From NCBI GenBank assembly GCA_031264245.1, contig JAISEG010000002.1:186001-250000 (forward strand): a DNA stretch of 64,000 nucleotides. Direction: 5' to 3'. The notes under the pieces are model-generated. The model was not told the DNA's origin. It saw only the letters and a list, made by a program, of their open reading frames with translations, and did no database searches. Each line of letters opens with the position of its first letter. The first letter of the stretch is position 1. Positions 9,448 through 43,169 of this stretch are shown here, in pieces. A program made the position numbers and the translations under genes. This DNA is from Oscillospiraceae bacterium. Its GTDB lineage: Bacteria > Bacillota > Clostridia > Oscillospirales > JAAYOS01.

Positions 9448-10782
9448 TTAATTTTGGGGTATGTCCAGCCCCGCCCGCAATATCGCTTTATCCAGCGCCT
9501 CCAAGGCCCTTTCGCTTATTTTCAGGTTTTTATCCCGCTTTTTCAGCTTTCCCGCACCAATGGAGAGCGGCGTCATTATTCCGAAGTTTATATTCATCGG
9601 CTGGAAGTCCCCCGCCGCGCCGCCGCTGATATACGCCGCGAGCGCGCCTGTCGCGGTGTCGCTTCCAAGCTTGAACGGAGCCACACCCAGCAGCCTTCCC
9701 GCCATGGCTGCGGCCGCGTATAAGCCCGACGCCGCCGATTCAATATACCCCTCGACCCCGGTCATCTGACCCGCGAAGCTCACTCTGGGGCATATTTTAG
9801 CCTCGTAGAACCCGCCCAGCAGCTTGGGAGAATTGAGGTATGTGTTGCGGTGCATGACACCGTACCGCACAAAGTCCGCGTTTCTGAGCGCCGGTATCAT
9901 CGAAAAGACCCGCTTCTGTTCCCCGAAGGTAAGGTGCGTCTGAAAGCCGACAAGGTTGTACAGGGTACCCTCCCTGTTGTCCTTTCTCAGCTGAACCACC
10001 GCGAAGGGCGGCTGGGAGCTCCTCGGGTCGGAGAGACCCACAGGCTTGAGCGGTCCGTAACGCAGCGTTTCATACCCCCGCCGTGCCATTACCTCCACCG
10101 GCATACAGCCCTCAAAGACCTTTTTGTCCTCGAAACCGTGTACCGCAGCCTCCTTCGCATCCTTTAATGCTTCCCAAAAAATTCTGTATTCATCCTCGGT
10201 CATCGGACAATTTATATAGTCCGCGGTGCCTTTGTTGTACCTGGAGGCAAAAAACGCGCTGTTCATATCTATCGTTGCCGCGTCGACGATAGGCGCCGCG
10301 GCGTCGTAAAAGCTGAGCGTGTCCTCCCCGCCGAAAAACCGGATAATATCCTGCGCAAGCGCGCCGGAGGTGAGCGGACCCGTTGCGACTATCACATCCC
10401 CGCTGTCCGGTATCGCGGAGACCTCGCCTCCCGTGAAGGTTATCCCGCTGTGGGAGGTCAATTTCTCCGTAATCTCGCGGGAAAACAGCTCCCTGTCCAC
10501 CGCGAGCGCGCCGCCTGCCGCAACCCTGTGCCTATCCGCCGCGTACATGACAAGGGAGCCCAGCCGACGCAGCTCCTCCTTCAGAAGCCCCGGCGCGTTT
10601 TCAAGTCCCGCCCCCCTCAGCGAGTTGGAGCAGACAAGCTCGCCGAAATTTCCGCTGTGATGGGCGGGGGACATGCTCTCAGGCTTCATGTCGCAAAGCT
10701 CCACCTCTATGCCCCTGCACGCAAGCTGCCACGCGGCTTCGCTTCCCGCAAGCCCCGCTCCGATGACCTTAACCTTCGGCAT
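9448..10782 (-). CDS. trmFO: tRNA m5U54 methyltransferase, folate- and FAD-dependent (TrmFO)
   Basis: This 444-residue flavoprotein uses methylenetetrahydrofolate to make ribothymidine at tRNA position 54. The N-terminus VKVIGAGLAGSEAAWQLA is a Rossmann FAD-binding fold. CDMKPESMSPAHHSGNFGEL and VCSNSLRG follow, both diagnostic for TrmFO/Gid. The catalytic-type Cys is in the VCSNS segment. Its ATG lies 14 bases inside the end of topA, so the pair is translationally coupled. The topA-trmFO order is conserved in Firmicutes. Confidence 0.97.
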   Translation of the reverse strand: MPKVKVIGAGLAGSEAAWQLACRGIEVELCDMKPESMSPAHHSGNFGELVCSNSLRGAGLENAPGLLKEELRRLGSLVMYAADRHRVAAGGALAVDRELFSREITEKLTSHSGITFTGGEVSAIPDSGDVIVATGPLTSGALAQDIIRFFGGEDTLSFYDAAAPIVDAATIDMNSAFFASRYNKGTADYINCPMTEDEYRIFWEALKDAKEAAVHGFEDKKVFEGCMPVEVMARRGYETLRYGPLKPVGLSDPRSSQPPFAVVQLRKDNREGTLYNLVGFQTHLTFGEQKRVFSMIPALRNADFVRYGVMHRNTYLNSPKLLGGFYEAKICPRVSFAGQMTGVEGYIESAASGLYAAAAMAGRLLGVAPFKLGSDTATGALAAYISGGAAGDFQPMNINFGIMTPLSIGAGKLKKRDKNLKISERALEALDKAILRAGLDIPQN

Positions 10783-13105
10783 CCCCCGCCTCCGTTTTCT
10801 TCGCTGTCCTTTTAGCCGGCTTCTTTGCTTCGGATTTTGAAGCGGAGGTTTTATCCGGCGCTGCCGTCTTTTTAGACCCGCTTTTTTTCGCAGCGGCGGT
10901 CTTTTTCGCAGCGGCTTTCTTCGCGGCCGGCTTCTTTGCCGCCGTCTTTTTCGCCTTCTTTTCTTCCCCGGCGGTCTCGGAGGTCTCGCCGTCCTCCGTT
11001 TTTACCCTCTTTTTGTAGCCCCTCTTGTCCTCCGGGAGGAAGAGAGCGCATTCCGGATTGACGCAGAAGGGCTTCTTCTGTCCCTTGCCGGACAGCTTGA
11101 ACATTGTCAGCCCACATTCGGGGCACTGATCGGCGACCGGGATGTCCCATGTCATAAAATCGCACGCGGGATGGTTTTCGCAGCCGTAGTAAGTATAGTT
11201 GTTTTTTGACTTCTTCTTGAGCACCGATCCGCCGCACTTGGGGCAGAAGCCGGGGGTCGGCTCGGTTATCGCCTTTGTAAATTTGCAGTCGGGGTAGCCC
11301 GGGCAGGCGAGAAACCGCCCGAAGCGGCCGCTTTTGATGACCATGTTGCGCCCGCACAGCTCGCAGACGACATCGGTCTCCTCGTCCGGCACCTTTATCC
11401 TCTCGTTCTTGAGCGCCTCCTCAGCCTCCTCCATCTTCTTTTCGAAATCGGAATAGAAGCTTTCGAGCAGCCGGCGCCACTCCTGCTTGCCCTCCCCCAC
11501 CTCGTCGAGCTGCTTTTCCATCCTGGCGGTAAACTCGATGTCGATGATGTTGTCAAACCTGTCCTTCATAAGCTGGGTGATCACCTCGCCCAGCGGGGTG
11601 GGGCGCAGGCTTTTTTGTTCCTTTATGACATATTCCCTGCTCAGTATTGTTGAAATAGTCGGCGCGTAAGTGGACGGGCGGCCCACTCCGTTCTCCTCCA
11701 TCGCCTTTATAAGCGACGCCTCGGTGTAACGCGGAGGCGGGATGGTGAAGTGCTGGCCCGGCAGAAGCTCGGCAAGGGTGAGCGCCTGACCCTCGGAAAG
11801 CGCGGGAAGCTTCGCGGTCTCCTCCTCGTCCGGTTCGTCCTTTCCCTCCTCGTATACGGCGGTAAAGCCCGCAAAGTTTATCCGCTGGCTTGTCGCGCGG
11901 AAAATATACCCCGCGGCCTCGGTCTCCACAGCCTGGGTGTCATATACCGCGTTTTCCATCTGGCAGGCAAGAAACCTGCTCCATATCAGCTTGTACAGCC
12001 GGTACTGGTCGGAGGTGAGCGAATCCTTGATGTCCTCGGGAATGAGCGTCACGTCTGACGGGCGGATCGCCTCATGCGCGTCCTGCGCCGTGCTTTTCGT
12101 CTTATATTTCCTCGGCTCCTTCGGCAGGTATTTCTCACCGTACCGGCTGGAAACCAGCGCGCGCACCGACTGTATGGCTTCGTCGGATATGCGAAGCGAA
12201 TCGGTTCTCATGTAGGTGATAAGCCCGACGTTGCCGATACCCTGGATATTTATTCCCTCATACAGCTGCTGGGCAATCGACATCGCGCGCCTGGACTGCA
12301 TACCCAGCTTTCTCGACGCCTCCTGTTGCAGCGTCGAGGTTATAAACGGCGGCGCGGGTGAGCGTCTTTTCTGCCCGTTCTTCACCGAGCGGACGGAAAA
12401 CGCGGCGTCCTCCACAGCCCTTTGAACCGCCAGCGTCTCTTCCTCGCTTGAAAGCTCCAGCTTCTCCGTCGTTGTTCCGTAAAAGCCCGCCTTGAATATG
12501 TGCCCGTCCGCGACGCTCAGCAGCACGTCGAGGCTCCAGTATTCCACAGGGACAAAGGCGCGTATCTCGTTTTCCCTGTCCACGGCGAGCCTTGTCGCCA
12601 CCGACTGGACCCTGCCCGCCGAAAGTCCCCTCTTTATTTTCCGCCACAGCAGCGGACTTAGCTCGTAGCCCACTATCCGGTCGAGAATCCGCCGCGCCTG
12701 CTGCGCGTCGACAAGGTCCATATCAATAGCCCTCGGCTTTGATATGGCGTCTCTGACTACGTTCTTTGTTATCTCGTTGAAGGTCACCCGCAGCGCCTTA
12801 TCCTCCGGGATTTCCAGAAGCTCCTTCAAATGCCAGGATATCGCTTCCCCCTCCCGGTCGGGGTCGGTCGCGAGATATATCTTATCGCTCTCCTCCGCCG
12901 ACTTCCTGAGGTCCTTTATCATGTCGTCCTTGCCCTTGATAGGCTGATAATCGGGGATAAAGCCACCCTCGATATTCACCCCCATCTTGGACTTCGGCAA
13001 ATCGCGCAGGTGTCCCATCGACGCCTTGACCCTATATCCCGCGCCAAGATATTTTTCTATTGTTTTAGCCTTTGCGGGCGATTCGACAATAACTAAATCC
13101 GCCAT
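10769..13105 (-). CDS. topA: DNA topoisomerase I (type IA)
   Basis: This enzyme relaxes negative supercoils by single-strand passage. It has 778 residues. The Toprim domain opens LVIVESPAKAKTIEKYLG (catalytic E8) and includes DPDREGEAI near 81-89. The active tyrosine is Y298 in GLITYMRTDS. Three C4 zinc ribbons follow at about 580-700 (CELCGRN...CPGYPDC, CPKCGG..., CPECGL...). A tail of about 70 residues rich in Lys and Ala with KKTAAKK-type repeats ends the protein and probably adds non-specific DNA affinity. AAGGAG precedes the ATG. Confidence 0.97.
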   Translation of the reverse strand: MADLVIVESPAKAKTIEKYLGAGYRVKASMGHLRDLPKSKMGVNIEGGFIPDYQPIKGKDDMIKDLRKSAEESDKIYLATDPDREGEAISWHLKELLEIPEDKALRVTFNEITKNVVRDAISKPRAIDMDLVDAQQARRILDRIVGYELSPLLWRKIKRGLSAGRVQSVATRLAVDRENEIRAFVPVEYWSLDVLLSVADGHIFKAGFYGTTTEKLELSSEEETLAVQRAVEDAAFSVRSVKNGQKRRSPAPPFITSTLQQEASRKLGMQSRRAMSIAQQLYEGINIQGIGNVGLITYMRTDSLRISDEAIQSVRALVSSRYGEKYLPKEPRKYKTKSTAQDAHEAIRPSDVTLIPEDIKDSLTSDQYRLYKLIWSRFLACQMENAVYDTQAVETEAAGYIFRATSQRINFAGFTAVYEEGKDEPDEEETAKLPALSEGQALTLAELLPGQHFTIPPPRYTEASLIKAMEENGVGRPSTYAPTISTILSREYVIKEQKSLRPTPLGEVITQLMKDRFDNIIDIEFTARMEKQLDEVGEGKQEWRRLLESFYSDFEKKMEEAEEALKNERIKVPDEETDVVCELCGRNMVIKSGRFGRFLACPGYPDCKFTKAITEPTPGFCPKCGGSVLKKKSKNNYTYYGCENHPACDFMTWDIPVADQCPECGLTMFKLSGKGQKKPFCVNPECALFLPEDKRGYKKRVKTEDGETSETAGEEKKAKKTAAKKPAAKKAAAKKTAAAKKSGSKKTAAPDKTSASKSEAKKPAKRTAKKTEAGDAEG

Positions 13106-13134
13106 TCACTCTGCTCCTTAAAATAGTCCAAAAA

Positions 13135-14355
13135 TCATTTTAAAAATAGATCGCTCAGCCCGTGCCTTTTCCCCGGGAAGGATACCACTATGCCGTCCAG
13201 CTCCAGAAGAGTGAGTTCGGCAAGCACGTCCCGCAGGCTGAGACCGGTGAGCCCCATGATATCGTCCACCTGTTTTGGTATATCCGCAATAGATACTATA
13301 ATCTTCCTTCGGCATTCTGTAAAGTCTTTTATTTTTTCGCTCAGCGGCGCGCGGGGCTCCTCTTCCTTTTCCGGCGTATCGTTTTTCCTGTCCTTAGCGC
13401 GGGATTTTACCGTGAGCATGGTATTTGAAATAACCGCGCGGTCCGCGCCTTCACCCCGCCCGGTTATCAATATCTTATGTGGAAATACATTTGTGTATTC
13501 GCTGAGCACGTCCCACGCGTCCGAAACAAGCTTTGCCCCCGACTTGATGAGGTTGTTTGCGCCCTCGCTCTCCCTGACATATATGCTGCCCGGCACGGCA
13601 AATACGTCCCGCCCCTCCTCAAGAGCGTAATTAGCGGTTATGTTTGTCCCGCTGTGCCTCGGAGCCTCCACCACAAGCACCCCCAGGCTCAGTCCGCTCA
13701 TTATCCTGTTGCGCACGGGGAAATGTATCCCCAGCGGCCGTGTTCCGGGCGGATACTCGGAGATGACGACGCCGGACGCGATTATGTCCTCGTATAGCTG
13801 CCTGTTCTCCGGAGGATATACCACATCCACCCCGCCGCCGAGCACAGCCGCCGTCATTTTTCCCGCCTTGAGCGCCCCGATATGCGCGGCTGAATCCAGC
13901 CCCGCCGCCATACCGGACACTATGTAGCCGCCGCCCGCCGCGATATCATGCGCCAGCCGCTCAGCCGCGGTCACACCGTAGGCGGTGCATTTTCGCGTCC
14001 CTATGACCGCTATCGCCGCTTCCTCGTCGAAAACCGGCATAGTCCCCTTATAATACAGCAGGATAGGGGGAACTCCGATATTTTTCAGCCTGTCCGGATA
14101 CTCCGCGTCCTGCATGGTCATAAGCTTTATTTGCCCACGGTCGCAGGCTTCAAATATCCTGTCCGCGGTCTCAAAGCTCTTGTCGCCGAGTATATCCGCT
14201 TCCGCCCCTGTTATCCCGTCCGCCTTCAGGTAATCCCCGCGCTCGGCGTAGTAAAGGTTCTCCAGCGTTCCGAAGTGACTGATAAGCTCCTGACACGCCG
14301 CCGGTTTAATTCCGGTCTTTGATGAAAGCCAGACCCAATATTTCAGCTGCGCCAT
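13135..14355 (-). CDS. dprA: DNA-processing protein DprA
   Basis: DprA loads RecA on incoming single-stranded DNA during transformation. The 406-residue sequence has an N-terminal HhH-like part, a Rossmann DprA core from AIAVIGTRKCTAYG (about 114-127) through VSGMAAGLDSAAHIGAL and VLGGGVDVVYPPENRQLY to FPVRNRIMSGLS, and a C-terminal winged helix (about 355-406). It lies upstream of topA, as in many Firmicutes. With comM at 53105 it hints at natural competence, but no DNA-uptake genes are in the window. Confidence 0.96.
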   Translation of the reverse strand: MAQLKYWVWLSSKTGIKPAACQELISHFGTLENLYYAERGDYLKADGITGAEADILGDKSFETADRIFEACDRGQIKLMTMQDAEYPDRLKNIGVPPILLYYKGTMPVFDEEAAIAVIGTRKCTAYGVTAAERLAHDIAAGGGYIVSGMAAGLDSAAHIGALKAGKMTAAVLGGGVDVVYPPENRQLYEDIIASGVVISEYPPGTRPLGIHFPVRNRIMSGLSLGVLVVEAPRHSGTNITANYALEEGRDVFAVPGSIYVRESEGANNLIKSGAKLVSDAWDVLSEYTNVFPHKILITGRGEGADRAVISNTMLTVKSRAKDRKNDTPEKEEEPRAPLSEKIKDFTECRRKIIVSIADIPKQVDDIMGLTGLSLRDVLAELTLLELDGIVVSFPGKRHGLSDLFLK

Positions 14356-14402
14356 TTTTTATCACCGCACCCTTCCTTATTTGACGCCCATACCAATCAG
14401 TG

Positions 14403-15167
14403 TTACAGACTGCCTCTTTTTGCCTCCCACATGGTTATGGCGGCGGCCTGCGCCGCGTTGAGCGATTCGGTCCCGTTTCTCATCGGTATTGCGTAGCTCC
14501 CCCCGCACAGCCGGAGCAGGGCGGCGGATATCCCGTTCCCCTCGTTTCCGATGACCGGGGTCACTTTGTCCCACTCTACATTCCTGATATCTGTCTCGCC
14601 GTCCGCCGCGGCCGCGTACAGCGCCGTCCCGCCGCCCAGCGCCGCGATTATCTCCTCCGTGCCGCATTCCATTACCGGCACCCTGAAAACCGCTCCCATC
14701 GACGCCCTGACCGCCTTATACCCAAACGGATCGGCGCAGCCTCCGTGCAATATCACGCCTGCCATCCCCGCGGCGGCGGCGGTGCGTATTATTGTCCCTA
14801 CGTTTCCCGGGTCCTGCAAGCCGTCCAGCAATATTCCGCCCTTCAGCGTTACCTCCCGCCTTTCAGGCAGCGCGGCTGTAAATATCACCCCCTGGGAGCT
14901 TTCCTGCGAGGAGATATATTCAAACAGTCCGTCCGGCAGCGAGACGATCCTCACACCGCCCGGAAGAACCGACGTATCGAAGCTCTCAGCCCCGCCGTCC
15001 GACAGTATAACAGCGCTTATGTCCGAGCCGGAGGAAACGGCGTCCAGAAGAAGCTTGGAGCCCTCGGCTATGAACATACCGTGTTCACGCCGGTATTTCC
15101 TGCTTGAAAACAGCTTAATTACATGCGCGATGAGCGGATTCTTTTTTGATGTAATGTACTCCGGCAT
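14403..15167 (-). CDS. SpoU/TrmH-family RNA 2'-O-ribose methyltransferase
   Basis: A 254-residue SPOUT enzyme that methylates rRNA or tRNA ribose from S-adenosylmethionine. An N-terminal substrate-binding part starts ITSKKNPLIAHVIKL and has FIAEGSKLLLDA. The knotted domain shows motif 1 LDGLQDPGNVGTIIRTA (about 142-158), motif 2 VIGNEGNGIS and motif 3 IPMRNGTESLNAAQAAAI. The exact target (23S G2251 or another site) cannot be decided. It is followed by dprA after 47 bases. Confidence 0.92.
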   Translation of the reverse strand: MPEYITSKKNPLIAHVIKLFSSRKYRREHGMFIAEGSKLLLDAVSSGSDISAVILSDGGAESFDTSVLPGGVRIVSLPDGLFEYISSQESSQGVIFTAALPERREVTLKGGILLDGLQDPGNVGTIIRTAAAAGMAGVILHGGCADPFGYKAVRASMGAVFRVPVMECGTEEIIAALGGGTALYAAAADGETDIRNVEWDKVTPVIGNEGNGISAALLRLCGGSYAIPMRNGTESLNAAQAAAITMWEAKRGSL

Positions 15168-15212
15168 TTATATCACCGCACCTTTGCTTCCCCTGTTAAA
15201 AAGCTCAAGTCT

Positions 15213-15875
15213 TCAAGCCTTCCCGTCCGTAACGGAGGTCAGATCGTCGTCTTTTCCAATCAAAACCAGTATATCACCCTTGTCAATAATATATTCAGCC
15301 GAGGGTGAGGCTGTGAATAACGTCCGGTTTCTGTTGTGCGCCGCAAGGACGGTAATGCCGTACCTTGCCCGTATATTCAGCGTCCCTATCGACTTGCCCG
15401 CCCAGTCGGACGGGGCGCTGCACTCTATTATGCTGTAGTCCTCGGACAGCTCGATGTAGTCGATCATGCTCGCGTTGGACATGGTCTGCGCAAGCCGCTT
15501 TCCCATGTCCCGCTCAGGTATAAGAACCCTGTCCGCCCCCACACGCTCGAGTACACGCTTATGATTTTCATTTTTCGCCTTGCATATGACCGTCTTCATC
15601 CCCATGTCCTTGAGCAGGAGGGTCACAAGCACGCTGTCCTCAATGTTGCCGCCTATCCCGACAATGGCGCAGTCAAAGTTTCTAACCCCGATCGAACGCA
15701 TGACCTCTTCATCCTTCGCGTCACATACCATCGAATGGGTCACCCTGTCCGCAATGCTTCCGACCTTCTCCTCATTTTCGTCTATGGCGAGCACCTCGTT
15801 GCCTATCTCCATCAGTTCCTCCGCCACAGCCGAGCCGAAGCGTCCAAGTCCGATTACAATATATGATTTTCTCAT
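15213..15875 (-). CDS. ktrA: Potassium-uptake regulatory subunit (KtrA/TrkA, RCK domain)
   Basis: This 220-residue cytoplasmic ring subunit gates a KtrB/TrkH channel in response to nucleotides. Residues 5-16 show the GxGxxG fold (VIGLGRFGSAVA), and AIDENEEKV has the acidic end of beta-2 that holds NAD/ATP ribose. The RCK_N domain spans about 1-125 and the RCK_C domain about 140-218. It lies 35 bases after the membrane subunit gene, and GGAGG precedes its ATG. Confidence 0.93.
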   Translation of the reverse strand: MRKSYIVIGLGRFGSAVAEELMEIGNEVLAIDENEEKVGSIADRVTHSMVCDAKDEEVMRSIGVRNFDCAIVGIGGNIEDSVLVTLLLKDMGMKTVICKAKNENHKRVLERVGADRVLIPERDMGKRLAQTMSNASMIDYIELSEDYSIIECSAPSDWAGKSIGTLNIRARYGITVLAAHNRNRTLFTASPSAEYIIDKGDILVLIGKDDDLTSVTDGKA

Positions 15876-15910
15876 TTGCGCTTATCCTCCAAATTCCGGA
15901 ATATCCGAGC

Positions 15911-17272
15911 CTATCCTATCAATATCTGCGTATCCGGATAGTGTATCTTTTCTTTCCTTGTGCCGGTCACAAGGGTGGATATCCCAAACGTCATCATTCC
16001 CACCCGGCCTAAAAACATCAGCGCCGCGAGAGCCGTGAGCGACGGCGCACTGAGCGTCCCGAGTGACTCGAACCTGAGCCCCAGCGTCGTCACCGCCGAA
16101 AGCGCGATACCAAACGCCTCCCCCATATCGAGGCTGTCACATACAAGCAGCACAGCCATCCCCGCGGTCAGCGAGACGAGCACAATAAAAAACATCGTCA
16201 TACAGTCGTGTACTTTCTCCTGCGGCACGTGTCTGCCCGCGATGTTTACCTCCCGCTTCCCTCTTATCGTCTCCGCCGCACTGATAACAAGTATTGCCGC
16301 CGCCACAGTCTTTAAGCCCCCCGCCGTAGACCCCGGGGAGCCTCCGATTACCATAAGTATCACGGTCAGAAGCTTTGAGGGACCGGTCAGGAGGGTGTGG
16401 TCGACAGTCAGCATACCCGACGTTCTCATCGCGGCGGACTGGTAGAGCGCGGCGAGCGCCTTGCCCGGAAGGGAAAAGCCCCCGATAGTGCCCGGATTTG
16501 AGTATTCAAAAACAAAGTAGAGCAGCCCGCCCAGAGCAATAAGCAGCCCGCTCATCACAATAACCAGCTTTGAATGGAGCATCAGCTCGCCAAAGCTTCT
16601 TTTCCGGTAGATATCCTCCCACACAAAAAATCCGAGTCCGCCCACCACAATAAGCCCGCCCAGCGTCAGGCATACTATCGGGTTAGTTGCGTACTCGGAA
16701 AATCCGGCGAAGGAAGCGGTCTCTCCCATCAGGTCAAGCCCGGCGTTGCAAAAAGCCGACACCGAGTGAAAGATACCCTTTATAAGCGCGCCGAAAAAAC
16801 CAAATCTCTTCCAGAAGCAGAGGGTCAGCAGCACAGCCCCCGCCCCTTCAAAGATAAGCGTACCGTATAAAACGTGCCGCACCGTTCTGACGACGCCGTT
16901 GATATCATTCAGGCTCAGCGACTGAACCATTATAAGCCGTTCCTTCAGACCTATGGTTCTGCCGAGCAAAAAGGAAAAAATTGATACAAAGCACATGAAG
17001 CCCAGCCCGCCTATTTGTATCAAGGCAAGCAAGACCCCCTGACCCAGCGGCGACCAGTAGCTCCACACGTCCCACATCGTAAAGCCTGTGACGCACACCG
17101 CCGAGGCCGAGGCAAAAAAGCTGTGGATAAAGCTTGTCCCCTCCCCGCTTTTTGAGCACACCGGGAGCATCAGAATAAGCGTGCCGGCAAAAATCAGCGC
17201 CACAAACACCAGCGGCACAGACCTTGTGGGACTCAGCCTATCTATTCTCCTGAATAACTTTTTTATCAACAT
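15911..17272 (-). CDS. ktrB: Potassium-uptake membrane subunit (KtrB/TrkH family)
   Basis: A polytopic transporter of about 453 residues in four repeated M1-P-M2 units. Selectivity-filter-like segments are seen at ASAVCVTGF, SVSAFCNAGLDL, AAMRTSGML and ALSAVTTLGL, each with the conserved Gly or its equivalent. The frame extends 5 codons further to a TTG at 17287; the ATG at 17272 begins MLIKKLFRRIDRLSP and fits the family better, although the GAGGA site lies nearer the TTG. It forms a two-gene unit with ktrA. Confidence 0.92.
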   Translation of the reverse strand: MLIKKLFRRIDRLSPTRSVPLVFVALIFAGTLILMLPVCSKSGEGTSFIHSFFASASAVCVTGFTMWDVWSYWSPLGQGVLLALIQIGGLGFMCFVSIFSFLLGRTIGLKERLIMVQSLSLNDINGVVRTVRHVLYGTLIFEGAGAVLLTLCFWKRFGFFGALIKGIFHSVSAFCNAGLDLMGETASFAGFSEYATNPIVCLTLGGLIVVGGLGFFVWEDIYRKRSFGELMLHSKLVIVMSGLLIALGGLLYFVFEYSNPGTIGGFSLPGKALAALYQSAAMRTSGMLTVDHTLLTGPSKLLTVILMVIGGSPGSTAGGLKTVAAAILVISAAETIRGKREVNIAGRHVPQEKVHDCMTMFFIVLVSLTAGMAVLLVCDSLDMGEAFGIALSAVTTLGLRFESLGTLSAPSLTALAALMFLGRVGMMTFGISTLVTGTRKEKIHYPDTQILIG

Positions 17273-34690: not shown

Positions 34691-35398
34691 CTACCACTCG
34701 ATCTCGGATATCGGCTTGGGAGCGGGGTTGTCGGTCACGGCTTCCACCTTGCCGCTTTTTATTTTCACCACCCTGTCCGCCATCGGCGCAATAGCCATAT
34801 TGTGGGTAATTACCACCACGGTAACTCCCTTTATCCGGCAGGTGTCCTGCAAAAGCTGGAGTATGCTCTTGCCCGTCTGGTAGTCGAGCGCTCCGGTAGG
34901 TTCGTCGCACAGCAGCAGCTTCGGATCCTTTGTCAGCGCGCGCGCAATCGCCACCCGCTGCTGCTCCCCTCCGGAAAGCTGTGCCGGAAAATTGTCTATC
35001 CTGTGCCCCAGACCCACCTCATTCAAAATCAGCCGCGGGTCCAGCGCATTTTTGCGGATCTGTGAAGCCAGCTCCACATTTTCAAGCGCGGTAAGGTTCT
35101 GTATCAGGTTGTAAAACTGAAATACAAAGCCCACATCGTCACGCCGGTATGTACAGATATCCCGGCCGGACAGGCGGGTTATATCCCGGCCGTCCACAGT
35201 GACCTGGCCGGAGGTTACGGTTTCCATACCTCCCAGCATATTCAGCACAGTGGTTTTCCCCGCGCCGGACGGTCCGACGATAATGCTGAATTTTCCCTTT
35301 TCCAGGGAAAAGGTTATACCGTCGGCGGCGCGCACGGCGACGTGCCCGCTGTGATATTCCCGGACGACGTCGGTAAAGGCGACATAATTTTCAGACAA
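34691..35398 (-). CDS. ABC transporter ATP-binding protein (LolD/MacB type)
   Basis: A 235-residue ATPase for the adjacent permease. Walker A is [16 protein letters not shown], the Q-loop is [17 protein letters not shown], the signature is [15 protein letters not shown] and Walker B is [12 protein letters not shown], all typical of MacB/LolD proteins. The open frame runs to 35518, but the upstream part crosses a 23-bp perfect hairpin. A TTG at 35398 with CGGAGG 5 nt upstream gives an N-terminus ([17 protein letters not shown]) that fits the family. It lies 65 bases before the permease. Confidence 0.92.
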
Positions 35399-35431
35399 AT
35401 TGACCTCCGTTGCGGATACGCCGCTTCTTCT

Positions 35432-35480
35432 TAATAAACCTATCCAAAATTCACTTTGTGAATTTTGGATAGGTTTATTA
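35432..35480. terminator. 23-bp perfect hairpin with TTT loop
   Basis: TAATAAACCTATCCAAAATT is the outer part of the left arm; the arm ends CAC, then TTT, then the exact complement. It lies between the ABC exporter pair and the LolD-type ATPase, so on the minus strand it probably ends exporter transcription. The flanking AT-rich bases could serve as a weak U-run. Confidence 0.55.
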
Positions 35481-35583
35481 TACACCCTGACTCCCGATAT
35501 CTCAATGTGGATATTCATAAGAGAATCAATTTCCGTTCAGAAATAATTTAGCTACTATTTCTCCCGTACAACGATATACATTG

Positions 35584-37332
35584 TCAAAGCTGTTCAAACT
35601 GGCTGCGGTAAATTTCGGAGTAGAAGCCCTTAGCCCGAAGCAGTTCCCTGTGCGTCCCCGTCTCCACAATCCTGCCCCCCTCCAGCACCAAAATCAGGTC
35701 CGCGGACACGACCGTCGAAAGCCTGTGCGCAATAATAAAGCTCGTCCGCCCCTCCATCAGCTTCCCAAACGCGCGCTGAACCCATATCTCGGTCAGGGTG
35801 TCTATGGAGCTTGTCGCCTCGTCAAGAATAAGCATACGCGGGTTTGCGAGCATGACCCGCGCTATGGTGATGAGCTGCTTTTGCCCATTAGACAAATTTT
35901 CTCCCCCGCCTGTTATTACAGCGTCGTACCCGTCCGGCAAATTCTTTATAAATGAATGCGCCTGCGCGTTTTCGCAGGCGGTCAGCAGCTCCCGCTCGCT
36001 CGCCCCGGGGTTTCCGTACATGATGTTTTCCCGCACGGTTCCGTCGAAAAGCCACGTGTCCTGCAAGACCATTCCGAAGCCGCTTCTCAGCGCGTCCCGC
36101 CTTATGTCCCTTATGTCCGTCCCGTCAACCGTGATCCTCCCGCCGCCGGTCTCATAAAACCGCATAAGCAGATTTACTATCGTAGTTTTTCCCGCTCCGG
36201 TAGGTCCGACTATGGCAATCACATTTCCCGGCGCGGCAAAAAGGCTCAGCCCCTCGATAAGCGGGCGGGCGGGGTCGTACGAAAAGCCCACGTTGTCAAA
36301 TTTAATCTCCCCCCGAACCTCGCCCAGCTCCGAAGCATCCGGGGCGTCCCCCGTCTCCTCCTCCTCGCCGAGCAGCTCAAATATGCGGTCCAGGGCGGCA
36401 AACGCGGTTTGGATATTGCCCATGATGGAGGACATCTCGTTAAACGGCTTTGAAAACTGCGCCGAATAGATTAAAAAGCTTGACACCGTTCCCGCCGAAA
36501 TTCCGTACGCGGCCGCCGATATCCCCCCGATAACGCCTACAAGCATGTAGGACGTATGATCCACAAAGCGGGTGACCGGATTGACGATAGCGGAGGCGAA
36601 GTGCGCCGTCTTTCCCGCCTTGTAAAGCGCGGCGTTTATCTCCTTGAATCTCCCGACGCTTTTTTCCTCGTACCCCAAAGCCTTTACAACCTTTTCGTTT
36701 CCTACGATCTCGGATACGAACGCGCTCAGGCTGCCCACCGCCTCCTGCTGCCGCTTAAAGGTTTTTTGAGAAAACCTGGCGACAAGGTACGCCACAATGA
36801 AGCAAAAGGGAGTGGCGAGCAAAATCACCAACGTGATTCCGACGTCCAGCCCGAGCATTATTATAAGCGCGGACAAAACGGTGACAAGTCCCGGGAAAAG
36901 GCTGGTAACGGTCAGCGACAGCGCGTCGCTTACGCTGTCCGCGTCGTTTGTGAAACGGCTTACAATGTCGCCGTGACGATGGGAATCGAAATAGGAAACG
37001 GGCAAACGGCCAAGCTTGCTGAAAAGCTTCAGCCTCAGGTCCATGGAGGTTTTGTAGGCGAGCTTATTCGCCAAAACCGACACAAACCACTGAAACACCG
37101 AGAAAAGACCGTACAGCACGGCAAGAATTATCAGCGCCTTCGCCAAGCCGCCAAAATCCACATTCCCCTCCCCGGCGACAATATCTATGGTTTTCCCTAT
37201 ATATAAGGTAGTCAGAACCGAGGCTATGCTCGTCACAGCGGCGCACAGCAAGGTAACCGCGAGCAATATCCCGCTGCCTGAAATAAGCCTTAAAAGCTTT
37301 TTAAAAGCCGTCTGTTTTTTACTCTTCACCAT
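35584..37332 (-). CDS. Heterodimeric ABC exporter, subunit with catalytic Glu
   Basis: A 582-residue half transporter with six TM helices (about 15-310) and a nucleotide-binding domain (about 345-580). Walker A is GPTGAGKTTIVN and Walker B is MLILDEATSSID with the catalytic Glu and H-loop IIAHRLS, but the signature is LSNGQKQ rather than LSGGQ. Its start overlaps the end of the partner gene by 7 bases. The partner has the reciprocal changes, so together they form one consensus and one degenerate ATP site, as in TM287/288 and LmrCD-type multidrug or lipid exporters. Confidence 0.93.
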   Translation of the reverse strand: MVKSKKQTAFKKLLRLISGSGILLAVTLLCAAVTSIASVLTTLYIGKTIDIVAGEGNVDFGGLAKALIILAVLYGLFSVFQWFVSVLANKLAYKTSMDLRLKLFSKLGRLPVSYFDSHRHGDIVSRFTNDADSVSDALSLTVTSLFPGLVTVLSALIIMLGLDVGITLVILLATPFCFIVAYLVARFSQKTFKRQQEAVGSLSAFVSEIVGNEKVVKALGYEEKSVGRFKEINAALYKAGKTAHFASAIVNPVTRFVDHTSYMLVGVIGGISAAAYGISAGTVSSFLIYSAQFSKPFNEMSSIMGNIQTAFAALDRIFELLGEEEETGDAPDASELGEVRGEIKFDNVGFSYDPARPLIEGLSLFAAPGNVIAIVGPTGAGKTTIVNLLMRFYETGGGRITVDGTDIRDIRRDALRSGFGMVLQDTWLFDGTVRENIMYGNPGASERELLTACENAQAHSFIKNLPDGYDAVITGGGENLSNGQKQLITIARVMLANPRMLILDEATSSIDTLTEIWVQRAFGKLMEGRTSFIIAHRLSTVVSADLILVLEGGRIVETGTHRELLRAKGFYSEIYRSQFEQL

Positions 37333-39095
37333 TTAACGTCATCCTCCCCGTCCCTGAACTGGGAGGAATATATTTCCCTGTAGTGCCCGCAGCTGGCCAG
37401 CAATTCCTCGTGCGTACCCATGCCGCTTATTTCCCCCTCCCGCAAAACCACTATTTTGTCCGCGTTTCGCACCGAGCTTATGCGCTGCGAAACTATGACC
37501 GAGGTGGTGGACGCGGGGAGCGAGGCCTTCAAGCTTTTTCTCAGCAGCATGTCGGTTTTGTAGTCCAGCGCGCTCAGGCTGTCGTCAAATATCAGTATCT
37601 CCGGCCGCTTTACCACCGCCCTGGCTATTGTCAGCCGCTGCCGCTGCCCGCCGGAAAAATTCCCGCCGCCCTCCCCGACCTGCGCCTCTATACCTTCGGG
37701 CAGCGCGGAAATAAAATCATATGCCTGCGCAATTTTCAGCGCGTCAATTATTTCCCCGTCGGCGGCGTCAGCCTTGCCCCACCTGATGTTTTCCGCGACG
37801 CTGCCCGAGAACAGGACGCCTGTCTGCGGGACGATTCCTATTTCCCTTCTCAGCCTGTCCCCGGGATATTCCTTTATATTTCTGCCGCCGATTTTTATTT
37901 CCCCGCCGGACACGTCGTAAAACCGCTGCAATAAATTTAAAAGGGTCGTCTTTCCGCTCCCCGTAATTCCGACTATCCCAAGCGTCCAGCCCCTTTTTAC
38001 CGCGAAGGTAATATTTGAAAGGACGTTTTCCCCGCCGTTGTACGAAAACGTAACGTTGTTAAATTCAAAGGAATATTCACCTTGTTTTTCATGCGGGAGA
38101 CCGCCTGATACGCTGTCGTCCGCCCCCGTCTCTTCCGGGAAAATTACCGACGGCTCGGTGTTCAGCACCTCGTTTATTCTCTCGGAGGAAACTATGGCCT
38201 TGGCAAACATGACCACCAAATTCGCCACCACAATCAACGCGTAGAGTATCTTTGTCGCGTATGTGCAAAGCGCGAGAATATTCCCCTGGGTCAGCCGCCC
38301 CTCAAAGACGCGCGACGCCCCGAAATACAGAATAGCTATGACGCTCAGGTTTACTATCATCGAGGTCAGCGGATTCATCAGCGTCGCCAAATTTGCCGCG
38401 TGATTACTGACCTCCCTCAGCTCCCCTGCCGCCTCCGCAAACCGCTCCTCCTCCTTCTTCGTACGCGAAAAAGCGCGGATGACCCGTACCCCGCCTAAAT
38501 TTTCCCGCACTATCAGCGCGGCGCGGTCCAGCTTTTTTTGCACCCTTGTATAAAGCGGCGAGGTGGTTTTCATAAACCAGAACAGTATTACTCCCAAAAT
38601 CGGTATGGTGACAAGAAAAATCAAGGTCAGCGTCACATCGATCATAAGCGACATAACAACCGCGCCTATACACAAAAAAGGCGCGCGTGACACCAGACGG
38701 ACAGTAAACGCGACCGCCTGCTGCACATAATTCACATCCGACGCAGTCCTGTTTATCAGCGTCTCGGTCCCGAATTTATCAAGCTCCGCGTATGAAAAGG
38801 CGGATATCCTCTCAATAAGCGCGTTGCGTATGTTAAGACCCGTTCCACAGGAGGATACAGCCGCGCAGTATTGGCAGTACAGCGCCGCCGCCAGACCCAG
38901 CACAATCAGTATGAGCAGGTACGCTCCCATCCTCAATATATAGCCGCGGTCGCCGCGTACAATGCCTATGTCAATAATATTTGCCATCAACAAAGGCAGG
39001 CACAGCTCAAGCGCCGCCTCCAGCAGCTTGGAAAGCGAGCCGAGAATGAACATCAGCCTGTATGGTTTAATGTATTTTGCAATAAGTTTAGTCAA
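37326..39095 (-). CDS. Heterodimeric ABC exporter, subunit with degenerate Walker B
   Basis: A 589-residue half transporter with six TM helices (about 15-305) and a nucleotide-binding domain (about 345-580). Walker A is GITGSGKTTLLN and the signature FSGGQRQRL is intact, but Walker B ends ILIFDDSLSALD with Asp in place of the catalytic Glu, and the H-loop reads IVSQR with Gln for His. It is the non-catalytic member of the pair. The TTG start at 39095 has GGAGG 7 nt upstream and gives the normal N-terminus TKLIAKYIKPYRLMFI. Confidence 0.93.
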   Translation of the reverse strand: MTKLIAKYIKPYRLMFILGSLSKLLEAALELCLPLLMANIIDIGIVRGDRGYILRMGAYLLILIVLGLAAALYCQYCAAVSSCGTGLNIRNALIERISAFSYAELDKFGTETLINRTASDVNYVQQAVAFTVRLVSRAPFLCIGAVVMSLMIDVTLTLIFLVTIPILGVILFWFMKTTSPLYTRVQKKLDRAALIVRENLGGVRVIRAFSRTKKEEERFAEAAGELREVSNHAANLATLMNPLTSMIVNLSVIAILYFGASRVFEGRLTQGNILALCTYATKILYALIVVANLVVMFAKAIVSSERINEVLNTEPSVIFPEETGADDSVSGGLPHEKQGEYSFEFNNVTFSYNGGENVLSNITFAVKRGWTLGIVGITGSGKTTLLNLLQRFYDVSGGEIKIGGRNIKEYPGDRLRREIGIVPQTGVLFSGSVAENIRWGKADAADGEIIDALKIAQAYDFISALPEGIEAQVGEGGGNFSGGQRQRLTIARAVVKRPEILIFDDSLSALDYKTDMLLRKSLKASLPASTTSVIVSQRISSVRNADKIVVLREGEISGMGTHEELLASCGHYREIYSSQFRDGEDDVKW

Positions 39096-39993: not shown

Positions 39994-40704
39994 CTAGTAC
40001 GATACCCGCTTATTCGACGGGTTGTCGAACCACTTCTTCAGCTTTTCAAGCGCTTTTTTCTCGATTCTTGATACATAGCTTCGCGATATTCCACACCTGA
40101 GCGCTATCTCCCTTTGGGTCATCGGCTTTTTGTTGTCCATGCCGTAGCGCTTTGTAATTATGTCCTTTTCCCTGTCGTCAAGCAGCTCATCCATGCCCCT
40201 CATAAGCGCATGATACATCTCTTCTCTGTCCAGCCGGTCAAGTATCTCCTCGCTTTCGTCGCTGAGCGTGTCGCCCAGCACAAGGGAATTCCCGTCCCCG
40301 TCGCTTTCAATGGTGTCAAACATCATAATTTCGCCCGCGACCTTTCTCTGGGTGCGAAAATACATCAGTATCTCGTTTTCTATACACCTGCCCGCGTATG
40401 TGGCAAGCTTGATTTTCTTGGAGGAATCGAAGGTGTTTACCGCCTTTATAAGCCCTATCGTCCCTATTGATATCAAATCCTCATGATCCTTTGAGGCTGT
40501 GTAATATTTTTTCATCACATGCGCGACAAGCCTCAAATTCCGTTCAACCAGGATATCCCTTGCCGTCTCATCGCCGTTTTCCGCAAGGGTCAGATATTTT
40601 TTCTCCTCCTCGGCTGACAACGGCTTTGGAAAGGACCCCCCTCCCGATATCCGCAGCGTTACATATAAGCTGTGAAGCAGGAGATACAGCGAAACAGAAA
40701 ACAA
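39994..40704 (-). CDS. sigK: Sporulation sigma factor SigK (pro-sigma-K)
   Basis: The late mother-cell sigma factor. About 236 residues: a hydrophobic pro-sequence (FSVSLYLLLHSLYVTLRIS), then FPKPLSAEEEKKYL and NLRLVAHVMKKYY as in B. subtilis SigK, region 2 with DLISIGTIGLIKAVNTFD and ATYAGRCIENEILMYFR, and region 4.2 with TQREIALRCGISRSYVSRIEKKAL. It is one continuous frame, with no skin-type interruption. The start is probably TTG at 40704 with GAGGTGG 5 nt upstream; a GTG at 40713 is possible. The pro-sequence implies SpoIVFB-type proteolytic activation. Confidence 0.95.
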   Translation of the reverse strand: MFSVSLYLLLHSLYVTLRISGGGSFPKPLSAEEEKKYLTLAENGDETARDILVERNLRLVAHVMKKYYTASKDHEDLISIGTIGLIKAVNTFDSSKKIKLATYAGRCIENEILMYFRTQRKVAGEIMMFDTIESDGDGNSLVLGDTLSDESEEILDRLDREEMYHALMRGMDELLDDREKDIITKRYGMDNKKPMTQREIALRCGISRSYVSRIEKKALEKLKKWFDNPSNKRVSY

Positions 40705-40820
40705 AATAACCACCTCATCAATAAGTAATATACACTAACTTATTCCGAAGCGGTTACGTTTATGTTGCGAAAAACCAATATTATAGGCAGTCATCGAAGT
40801 CCGCCGTATACCGGGAGCCT

Positions 40821-41036
40821 TTATCCATGGGTCTCCATATCCTGATCCCGGTCTCCGCCGCCTCCGGGTTTTTTTGATATTTTGGCTTCTATCCCGCTGT
40901 CGATAAGGTGGATAAGCTCCATTACGCTCCTGTACGGCTGCACCTCATCGGTGTCCATATTGCTGAGCATTCCTTGCAGGGAGGAGTTCTGCCGGTTTAA
41001 AACCTCAACAATAAAATAGCTGTTGATCTTCTCCAT
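40821..41036 (-). CDS. Small unknown protein with RQN-S-QG domain
   Basis: A 71-residue protein that I cannot assign. The core FIVEVLNRQNSSLQGMLSN, then YRSVMELIHLIDSGI, closely resembles the C-terminal third of the next gene upstream (FTMYVVSRQNVSWQGYVRF, HSELDLIRLILKHVL), so the two share a small domain of about 45 residues. The tail (KKPGGGGDRDQD) is polar and probably disordered. The ATG at 41036 has GGAGAGG 9 nt upstream. It is the third gene of a probable operon headed by the BTAD regulator. Confidence 0.72.
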   Translation of the reverse strand: MEKINSYFIVEVLNRQNSSLQGMLSNMDTDEVQPYRSVMELIHLIDSGIEAKISKKPGGGGDRDQDMETHG

Positions 41037-41098
41037 AGTATGCCGCCTCTCCAACAATTTACAGAGCTTCATTCCGGGTAAACGCCGATAGGTTCACC

Positions 41099-41542
41099 TT
41101 ATGGCGCACCAAGGGCGGTCAAGACATGCTTCAAAATAAGCCTTATCAAATCAAGCTCGCTGTGAAATACTGTTTCGCCGGCTTCACCGGCAAACCGGAC
41201 ATAGCCCTGCCAGCTAACATTTTGCCTTGACACGACATACATTGTAAAGGTCATAAGCCTTCCCGCGAACCCCTCGATTTCAACGCCGTCCTTGTCCTCC
41301 AGCAGCCGGTAATCGGGTGCTGGCAGCTGTCCCCTCTTAAAGGTTCTCTTGTTTTGAAACGCCTGCGGATACTTCTGTTTATCCATTAAGGCTTCAGTCA
41401 GATATAAAAAATCATTTATATCCGTGAATTTTACAGGCTCGCTCAGGCGGCGGTGATATATTTCCCCTGATATCGCCCCATTGATAAATCCGTTCACACA
41501 AATTTGAAACACCGCGTTTTTATTTATAAATGTCGTATTCAT
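41099..41542 (-). CDS. Unknown protein ending in an RQN-S-QG domain
   Basis: A 147-residue cytoplasmic protein without signal or membrane segments. The N-terminal part (about 10-60) reads VFQICVNGFINGAISGEIYH and NDFLYLTEALMDKQKYPQAF. The C-terminal part (about 100-145) has the RQN-S-WQG and ELDLIRLI motifs shared with the small gene at 40821. GGAGA lies 7 nt before the ATG, and the gene starts 18 bases after the BTAD regulator stop, so it is almost certainly cotranscribed. Function unknown; the context suggests a product of, or partner for, the regulator. Confidence 0.78.
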   Translation of the reverse strand: MNTTFINKNAVFQICVNGFINGAISGEIYHRRLSEPVKFTDINDFLYLTEALMDKQKYPQAFQNKRTFKRGQLPAPDYRLLEDKDGVEIEGFAGRLMTFTMYVVSRQNVSWQGYVRFAGEAGETVFHSELDLIRLILKHVLTALGAP

Positions 41543-41560
41543 TGCAAATCTCCAACCAAC

Positions 41561-42778
41561 TCACATCGACAGCTCGATCTGACGCAGCTTATAGCCTATT
41601 TTCAGCTTATCTCGCGGGTACTGGCGGGCAAAGCCGCGCAGTATCCTTCTCATCACCATTTCCGCGTTTTCATAGCTTGCGGTTGGCAGGAGGAATACGT
41701 ATTGCGCCCCGCTGTATCTGGAGACGACGTCGCCCTTCCTGAGCGTCTGGGTAATGACCTCCAGCAGCCTGCCCATCGTCTTGTTCAAAATGTCCAGCTC
41801 CGGAACGTCGCCGGTTTCGGTCGCAACCGTCATAAGCGCGAGATGCACGCTTATCCCCTGCCTGGGCGCCCTTCTGACCTCAAGCCGGTACGCCTCCCGG
41901 AAAAAGCCCGGTTCAACAATAAACGCTCCGGCGTTTTCATCCCTTTCACGCATATCGTGCTGAATGAAATTGAGATCCACCTCCAGATTCTTTTGATCCT
42001 TCATTATCTCAAGATACAGCTCCCGAAGCCGCCTTGACGGCTGTACCCCCAGGTTTCTGTACAGCAGGTCGGTGGCTCTTTCGTAATGCTTCAGCGCGCC
42101 CTGATAATCTCCCAGGCGTATCATCGCAAGCACCATAAGGGAGTGCAGCTGTTCGTCATAGATATCGATCTCAAGAGCTTTCCCGCACAGTCCGGCAAGC
42201 TCCTCAAACAAATTGTTCTTTATCAGCAGGCCCGCGAAGCCCTTGACCGTTTTCAAATATGTTTCATGATAGTGCAGTGAAATGGGACGAAGCCAGAGCT
42301 GGGCGGCAAGCTTGGGCAGAAATACCCCCTTGTATAACGAAATAGCTTTTCTGTAAGCGGCGAAACGGTCCTCCTCGCTCATTGTTTCGTTTTCAAGCTT
42401 GTAGCAAACCTCGGAAAATTCCTCAATGTCAACGCAGCAGTTTAAATTCCTGTTCCACGAGTAGGAGCCCCTCTGCGAAAGGATAAGCCGGAGCTCTTCG
42501 CCGATAATGGGCGCAAGGGTCAACCTGGTGCGGTACAGCAGGGTTTTAAGCGCGCTGGACGAATTTTCGCTGTCGCCCGGCCACAGCACATCCTCAAATT
42601 CACTTTGAAGTATATTCCTGTCCCTGTGCACAATGAGATAGGCAAGCAAATTCCACATCATGCCCGAACGGTTAATCTCATCTGTGATAACAGCGTCGCC
42701 TATACATATCCTGAATTCTCCAAACATATATATCTTAACCATTGTGCCCATCATTTCCATGTTTAAAGTTTCGTCCAT
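41561..42778 (-). CDS. SARP/BTAD transcriptional regulator with degenerate GGDEF-like tail
   Basis: A 405-residue regulator. Residues about 13-110 form an OmpR-type winged helix (MVKIYMFGEFRICIGD; SSALKTLLYRTRLTL). Residues about 130-275 are a TPR-rich bacterial transcriptional activator domain (GDYQGALKHYERATDLLYRNLGVQPS). The last 120 residues look like a GGDEF fold: MTVATETG, LRKGDVVSRYSGAQYVFLLP where SGAQY occupies the GGDEF site, and AEMVMRRILRGF. The site lacks the catalytic Asp-Glu, so it is a sensor at most. GGAG lies 8 nt before the ATG. Confidence 0.85.
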   Translation of the reverse strand: MDETLNMEMMGTMVKIYMFGEFRICIGDAVITDEINRSGMMWNLLAYLIVHRDRNILQSEFEDVLWPGDSENSSSALKTLLYRTRLTLAPIIGEELRLILSQRGSYSWNRNLNCCVDIEEFSEVCYKLENETMSEEDRFAAYRKAISLYKGVFLPKLAAQLWLRPISLHYHETYLKTVKGFAGLLIKNNLFEELAGLCGKALEIDIYDEQLHSLMVLAMIRLGDYQGALKHYERATDLLYRNLGVQPSRRLRELYLEIMKDQKNLEVDLNFIQHDMRERDENAGAFIVEPGFFREAYRLEVRRAPRQGISVHLALMTVATETGDVPELDILNKTMGRLLEVITQTLRKGDVVSRYSGAQYVFLLPTASYENAEMVMRRILRGFARQYPRDKLKIGYKLRQIELSM

Positions 42779-42828: not shown

Positions 42829-42860
42829 ATTATATCATTTTCCTTGTTAAAATGCCAGTG
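42829..42860 (-). promoter_or_regulatory. Possible promoter for the BTAD cassette
   Basis: On the minus strand a perfect TATAAT lies 50 nt before the start codon with CTGGCA 18 bases upstream of it. The -35 match is weak. The 391-base gap from 42779 to 43169 is otherwise AT-rich and also contains an inverted repeat TTTGCAGACC/GGTCTGCAAA at 42956-42999 and a 25-nt palindrome GTAATATAGCAA/TTGCTATATTAC at 43024-43048. Confidence 0.4.
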
Positions 42861-43072: not shown

Positions 43073-43117
43073 TAAAAACAGCAAAACGGCGCGGTGAGGA
43101 CACCGCGCCGTTTTGCT
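43073..43117 (-). terminator. Terminator of the aspartate-family operon
   Basis: On the minus strand AGCAAAACGGCGCGGTG pairs perfectly over 17 bp around a 4-nt loop and is followed by TTTTTATT, about 53 nt after the lysC stop. Confidence 0.88.
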
Positions 43118-43169
43118 GCAACCCCTTAAGGGAGAGACCGGGAATTAAATCCGCCTGTTCATATGAAAC

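Follow-up and report, generated by a model that had tools for sequence, protein, structure and literature searches.

What would a SARP-type regulator with a GGDEF-like tail control in a member of the Clostridia, and what do the two small proteins encoded directly behind it contribute? The question is raised by a three-gene cassette in a 64 kb stretch of DNA, which was analysed as a whole and is called the window here. The cassette is, with a probability of roughly 70%, an output module for c-di-GMP, in which the SARP regulator would sense the second messenger through a degenerate GGDEF domain and control adhesin and pilus-like genes, and the small proteins, named RQN proteins after their signature, would act at the output.

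The original prediction had placed three open reading frames here, and an ORF check recovered all of them on the minus strand between 42778 and 40821: a BTAD regulator and two small-protein genes (Table 1). The predicted spacing of 18 nt between the regulator and small protein 1 is exact. For the second spacing, 62 nt had been proposed; the gap is 26 nt if counted from the start of the longest ORF (41072) and 62 nt if counted from an internal ATG (41036). Because the internal ATG has a ribosome site (GGAGAGG) and agrees with the start positions in relatives, the start at 41036, and hence the 62-nt gap, is probably right. A promoter-like site precedes the regulator gene by about 50 nt, and a hairpin closes the upstream aspartokinase gene and separates it from the cassette. 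The scan found no minus-strand terminator-like site between the cassette genes. The three genes are likely to share one predicted transcript.

Table 1. Features of the cassette and its upstream region (window positions).
Feature	Position	Strand	Details
Regulator gene	41561..42778	-	405 aa: winged helix, BTAD/TPR, degenerate GGDEF domain
Winged-helix DNA-binding region	42455..42739	-	About aa 14-108; Trans_reg_C E=0.0026, AfsR alignment
BTAD domain	42005..42430	-	aa 117-258; PF03704 E=8.4e-17
Degenerate GGDEF domain	41564..41923	-	aa 286-405; model alignment and profile matches
RKGD, the RxxD inhibitory-site motif	41729..41740	-	R347-D350
SGAQY at the GG[DE]EF active-site position	41699..41713	-	aa 356-360
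R378, distal inhibitory-site Arg	41645..41647	-	31 residues after R347
Small protein 1	41099..41542	-	147 aa; predicted beta-beta-beta-alpha domain twice (aa 11-56, aa 97-143)
RQNVSWQG signature, small protein 1	41204..41227	-	aa 106-113
Small protein 2	40821..41072	-	ORF of 83 aa; single RQN domain; probable start 41036 (71 aa)
RQNSSLQG signature, small protein 2	40971..40994	-	Sequence and alignment
Promoter-like site CTGGCA-18-TATAAT	42829..42858	-	10/12 matches, consensus only; TG before second hexamer
Intrinsic-terminator-like hairpin	43078..43119	-	Strong, 19 pairs; consensus match only

The cassette is flanked by the aspartokinase gene upstream and by a sigma-factor gene followed by ABC transporter genes downstream. 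The sigma-factor gene (39994-40713, minus strand) is of the sporulation type, with Sigma70 r2 and r4 regions, and is SigK-like; it begins 107 nt past small protein 2, and the intervening stretch shows no terminator-like site. A truncated sigma ORF related to it lies beside a small gene in another locus (L204, 9437-9799). The ABC transporter genes form a row at 34691-39095 (minus strand), and three of these ORFs fall into one similarity cluster.

The regulator had been predicted to join a winged helix to a BTAD domain, and both parts were supported. As a single sequence, it scores 62.3 bits against the BTAD family in Pfam, where the cut-off is 22.1. The corresponding Trans_reg_C score of 18.3 bits is under the Pfam cut-off of 26.2; the winged helix is supported by the AlphaFold2 model of the regulator (mean pLDDT 89), to which AfsR and EmbR align starting at aa 10-13 with Z scores of 19-20.5. 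AfsR aligned over aa 12-263 (Z 20.5) and EmbR over about aa 11-264 (Z 19). Several solved GGDEF domains were matched by a 38-row profile of the regulator family, as were AfsR (2e-17) and EmbR (6e-11). The modelled fold is best read as that of a winged-helix/BTAD transcription factor of the SARP type (AfsR/EmbR-like) with putative DNA-binding activity.

The last 120 residues had been expected to adopt a GGDEF fold with SGAQY at the active site. Comparison of the predicted C-terminus with known folds bore this out: residues 287-405 of the model superpose on solved GGDEF domains with Z about 14 (PleD 297-424, Z 13.4), and SGAQY aligns with the GGEEF/GGDEF of solved cyclases. The domain is shorter at its C-terminus than a full GGDEF domain, and the GGDEF match of the single regulator sequence is below the Pfam cut-off. 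The motif of an active diguanylate cyclase is replaced by SGAQY in the window and mostly by S-x-S-Q-F/Y in relatives. An active GGDEF motif is absent from all of 100 distinct regulators, which represent all fetched loci and include the 38 aligned regulators; 96 of the 100 carry Gln at the position of the catalytic Glu. The tail had been described as dead, which is correct for the active site but overlooked the inhibitory site (I-site), whose triad persists: RxxD is found in 98 of the 100 regulators, and RxxD together with R378 in 97. Among the 38 aligned regulators, R302, R306, G308, R347, G349, D350, and R378 are invariant. In HMMER alignments, the RxxD motif coincides with those of SadC (LRDGD), tDGC (VRRSD), and 3ign (IRQSD), the last of which is an entry of a c-di-GMP complex. 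The I-site of PleD, which we take to be R359, D362, and R390, presumably has the same distance of 31 between its arginines. GGDEF domains in general often carry the Arg of their ER motif, so R378 weighs less than RxxD. A kept I-site combined with a lost catalytic site is the pattern expected of a c-di-GMP receptor. Since the inhibitory site is retained in nearly all of these regulators, the tail is probably a receptor rather than a relic, and it is predicted to bind c-di-GMP. In the degenerate GGDEF domain of Bacillus cereus PelD, R363, D366, and R395, which correspond to the triad of the regulator, are required for c-di-GMP binding (PMC7112168).

The loss of the active site in every regulator would also suit a tail that has become a dimerisation or protein-interaction module for another ligand or for the small proteins; the regulator would then still control surface genes, and c-di-GMP would act through riboswitches only. 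A pure scaffold, however, would have no need of RxxD and the distal Arg, which have been kept in divergent regulators despite the drift of the active site. This alternative is thus rather improbable, and the evidence on genomes and riboswitches given below bears on it further.

The two small genes had been predicted to share a domain. A pairwise BLASTP comparison of small proteins 1 and 2 gave no match, although a family profile built without the 83-aa protein matches the C-terminal domain of that protein with E=1.8e-10; their kinship is therefore real. The signature of the RQN domain is R-Q-N/H-A/S-S/T-W-Q-G, followed by an F-R-S-x-L-E-L helix; the R, Q, W, Q, and G of the small protein 1 signature are invariant in 83 sequences. 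Small protein 1 is predicted to contain two units, one with strands at 11-20, 23-30, and 37-39 and a helix at 42-56, and the other with strands at 97-107, 110-117, and 123-126 and a helix at 129-143. The N-terminal domain of the family, absent from the original prediction, is likely a copy of the shared domain that arose by internal duplication. Compared as profiles, the two halves of small protein 1 give E 6e-5 at a probability of 65%, so the duplication is likely, short of proven.

The RQN-S-QG domain had been presented as one without a described function, and the libraries agree. No consistent Pfam or NCBIfam match was found in 83 RQN members, no PHROGs match of note in nine members, and no PDB sequence relative of note; Foldseek with the small-protein model returned nothing below E 0.15. 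By sequence, the RQN proteins are a small-protein family without a library entry. The full 29-row alignment was too divergent for searching, and a nine-row subset was used. A viral scan with the 83-aa protein found no relative, and the phage link of the family is limited to one IMG/VR contig. The motif RQN-x-S-W-Q-G contains NxSxxG, as in PilZ domains (RxxxR and later (D/N)xSxxG, on a beta-barrel). Within the RQN family, none of the 83 members matches PilZ in Pfam, the first Arg of RxxxR is not invariant, and the folds reach at most Z 4.1. A likeness of the small model to triphosphate-tunnel (CYTH) proteins was rejected, as its best Z of 4.1 is below the level of a common arrangement.

A profile search and a table of neighbours were used to investigate the distribution of the cassette. 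A sample of 295 genomes from the order contains 35 with the small family, 51 with the regulator, and 31 with both. The regulator is present in 31 of the 35 genomes that carry a small gene versus 20 of the 260 others (p=3e-24), and these 20 genomes have the regulator without the small protein. In a phylum-wide sample of 398 genomes, 32 of the 34 small-carrying genomes have the regulator. A public genome collection yielded 278 confirmed places, of which 80 were kept, including ones in Oscillibacter, Flavonifractor, and Pseudoflavonifractor. The order regulator, two-domain gene, one-domain gene is also intact in another genome of the order (G064, L121). Homologs of the small proteins thus adjoin BTAD regulators, and at the level of genomes the co-occurrence is strong, which also fits a scaffold tail that binds the small proteins. 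In one locus (L222, G675:C1, about 9740-10508), a two-domain small gene is interrupted by an in-frame TAA, while the regulator on one side of it and the one-domain copy on the other are intact; the gene is either an error or a paralogue in decay.

The window's cassette sits between the sigma-factor and aspartokinase genes, without functional neighbours, and could be taken for a one-off: an ordinary BTAD regulator beside two unrelated hypothetical genes that form no system. The recurrence of the same genes and neighbours across the order and the phylum already contradicts this view, which we consider extremely improbable. The cassette is real and conserved.

In relatives, the common neighbours are genes for T2SSE, T2SSF, DUF4860, a transglutaminase-like lipoprotein, sortase, Cna_B, and FctA. 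In Flavonifractor sp. An100 (L142), for example, a divergent regulator gene is followed by genes for a transglutaminase-like lipoprotein and T2SSF, three short genes (one of them DUF4860), and T2SSE, and then by a small-protein gene, a c-di-GMP-I riboswitch, a Cna_B surface-protein gene, and a sortase gene; variants of this order recur in other loci. Past this riboswitch, the Cna_B gene appears as two separate ORFs (10642-12078 and 12366-16400), for which a frameshift, an assembly error, or phase variation could each be responsible. In the window's own family, one genome (G008, L124) encodes a regulator 46% identical to that of the window, pilus genes, and a small gene in a single locus.

Of 85 small genes in 81 loci, 41 lie directly 5' of a gene whose product has a signal-like N-terminus; judged by a crude pattern, 24 of these 41 downstream genes have an anchor-like end. 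In 16 of the 85 cases, no more than 700 nt separate the small gene from the regulator, and in 40 the regulator is inside the fetched 10 kb. The small proteins are tied more closely to surface-protein genes than to the regulator. These counts bear on the idea, already contained in the original prediction, that the small proteins are ligand-binding partners. The RQN proteins could act directly on the regulator, as ligand-responsive partners or as anti-activators, and form a regulator-adaptor switch that would be compatible with a c-di-GMP output module. The presence of the regulator in most small-carrying genomes would agree with this, as would the regulator-small-small order shared by the window and G064 and resembled in two other loci (L224, L225). 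On the other hand, the small gene is usually found at the adhesin end, and regulators also occur without any small protein in the 20 genomes noted above. Because the small genes are linked more to surface-protein genes than to the regulator, a partner role is possible, at clearly less than even odds, and has no advantage over a function at the adhesin or pilus output.

Two further contexts of the small genes were observed. In four phylum-wide loci (L229, L226, L227, and L230), a one- or two-domain small gene lies directly 5' of a gene with an LPxTG-like end, even where no riboswitch was detected between them. In six others (L203, L190, L197, L210, L180, and L136), the RQN gene ends an operon that seems to encode, upstream, AMP-binding/condensation proteins, a carrier protein, a phosphopantetheinyl-transferase-like protein, and a response regulator; a natural-product operon is possible.

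A c-di-GMP-I aptamer was first suspected from reading the gap 3' of a small gene. In the eight loci checked first, which had been picked because their sequence resembled this aptamer, Rfam RF01051 was found in all eight, at 68-83 bits against a gathering threshold of 35; at the gathering score it was found in two of nine further loci. A model built from 20 of these riboswitches was applied to 79 loci that were picked by protein alone and had sufficient downstream sequence. In 41 of them, a c-di-GMP-I riboswitch was detected no more than 300 nt past the small gene; the others, about half, have none within that distance. The riboswitch 3' of the small gene is mostly followed by a gene for a secreted, often sortase-anchored surface protein. 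Among 18 phylum-wide loci selected for having both the regulator and the small gene, 13 contain a c-di-GMP riboswitch within the fetched stretch, and three classes are represented: c-di-GMP-I, c-di-GMP-I-GGC, and c-di-GMP-II (in G675). Three tandem c-di-GMP-I copies were seen near the cassette in two loci (L229, 11870-12247; L230, 6833-7220).

In the order sample, only 82 of the 295 genomes have any c-di-GMP-I riboswitch; it is present in 22 of the 51 regulator genomes and in 60 of the 244 others, a modest difference (p=0.007). G008 is listed without a c-di-GMP-I riboswitch, and G064 is not among the riboswitch-bearing genomes of this sample. The link is local and is no genome-wide requirement. 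The modest co-occurrence per genome would suit a regulator whose tail is a mere scaffold; the three riboswitch classes near the cassette speak against it. It is also conceivable, if doubtful, that the RQN domain is a new c-di-GMP output protein, with c-di-GMP itself, the leader that holds the riboswitch, or the nascent adhesin mRNA as its ligand, in which case the cassette would join a protein sensor (SARP-GGDEF), an RNA sensor, and a small-protein sensor or coupler, all acting on one surface programme.

The surroundings of the cassette in the window yielded no surface protein, sortase, pilus gene, or riboswitch, and an Rfam scan of the 64 kb gave no RNA match. In the window's genome, which is 47% complete, neither a c-di-GMP-I riboswitch nor a T2SSE gene was found. 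The genome encodes six intact GGDEF domains, so c-di-GMP is probably made in this organism. The window's copy of the cassette may serve the same surface programme as the copies in relatives.

Since the relatives' genes adjoin c-di-GMP riboswitches, adhesins, and pilus genes, the gene set probably controls bacterial attachment. As a c-di-GMP output module, the cassette may work as follows. The cell's cyclases would make c-di-GMP, which would occupy the I-site of the regulator tail and alter the dimer state or assembly of the regulator, or its DNA binding. The SARP part would then activate, or release, transcription of the type IV pilus-like (T2SSE/T2SSF) genes and of the adhesin genes, whose products would be the large secreted, often sortase-anchored Cna_B/FctA proteins. 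Where a riboswitch is present in the leader, it would gate the adhesin mRNA a second time by c-di-GMP. The RQN proteins would be cytoplasmic accessories of the output step, produced just ahead of the adhesin. Both the direct regulation of surface genes by the regulator and the action of the RQN proteins at the adhesin or pilus output are what we infer from gene neighbourhoods, and control in either direction, on or off, is compatible with the sequences.

If this is true, the regulators would represent a widespread family of c-di-GMP-responsive transcription factors in gut Bacillota, built from a SARP protein and a repurposed GGDEF domain. The host lineages include Oscillibacter, Flavonifractor, Pseudoflavonifractor, and many uncultured ones, and the source genome is of a gut-type Clostridia. 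In common gut anaerobes, pili and sortase-anchored adhesins would then be linked at two levels to a single second messenger, and RxxD-dependent c-di-GMP binding is a concrete prediction for the regulator tail.

SARP regulators, degenerate GGDEF receptors, c-di-GMP riboswitches, and sortase-anchored adhesins are individually known. Searchable open-access literature and libraries yielded neither the SARP-GGDEF fusion, nor the combination, nor the RQN family: open-access titles and abstracts gave nothing relevant on a regulator with BTAD and GGDEF or with SARP and c-di-GMP, and the words BTAD, SARP, and AfsR are absent from a 2025 review of c-di-GMP effectors. With the SARP/BTAD activators AfsR and EmbR, the regulator has the winged helix and the BTAD/TPR part in common. 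The C-terminal part is an ATPase/TPR region in AfsR and an FHA domain in EmbR, whereas the present regulator ends in a degenerate GGDEF domain and is found in Bacillota beside surface genes rather than in antibiotic clusters. The degenerate-GGDEF c-di-GMP receptors PelD and PopA resemble it in that RxxD and the distal Arg are intact although the active site is dead. Neither of them is known as a DNA-binding transcription factor; in the regulator, by contrast, the degenerate GGDEF domain, here a predicted receptor, is fused to a SARP DNA-binding part. The leaders of relatives carry the known c-di-GMP-I riboswitch (RF01051) well above its threshold, and none was found in the window. A precedent for riboswitch control of such genes comes from Clostridioides difficile, in which c-di-GMP riboswitches precede sortase-dependent adhesin genes and the pilin gene pilA1 (PMC6200980). 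Those loci are described as riboswitch-controlled, whereas the loci of the relatives also encode, in or near them, a SARP-GGDEF regulator and RQN proteins.
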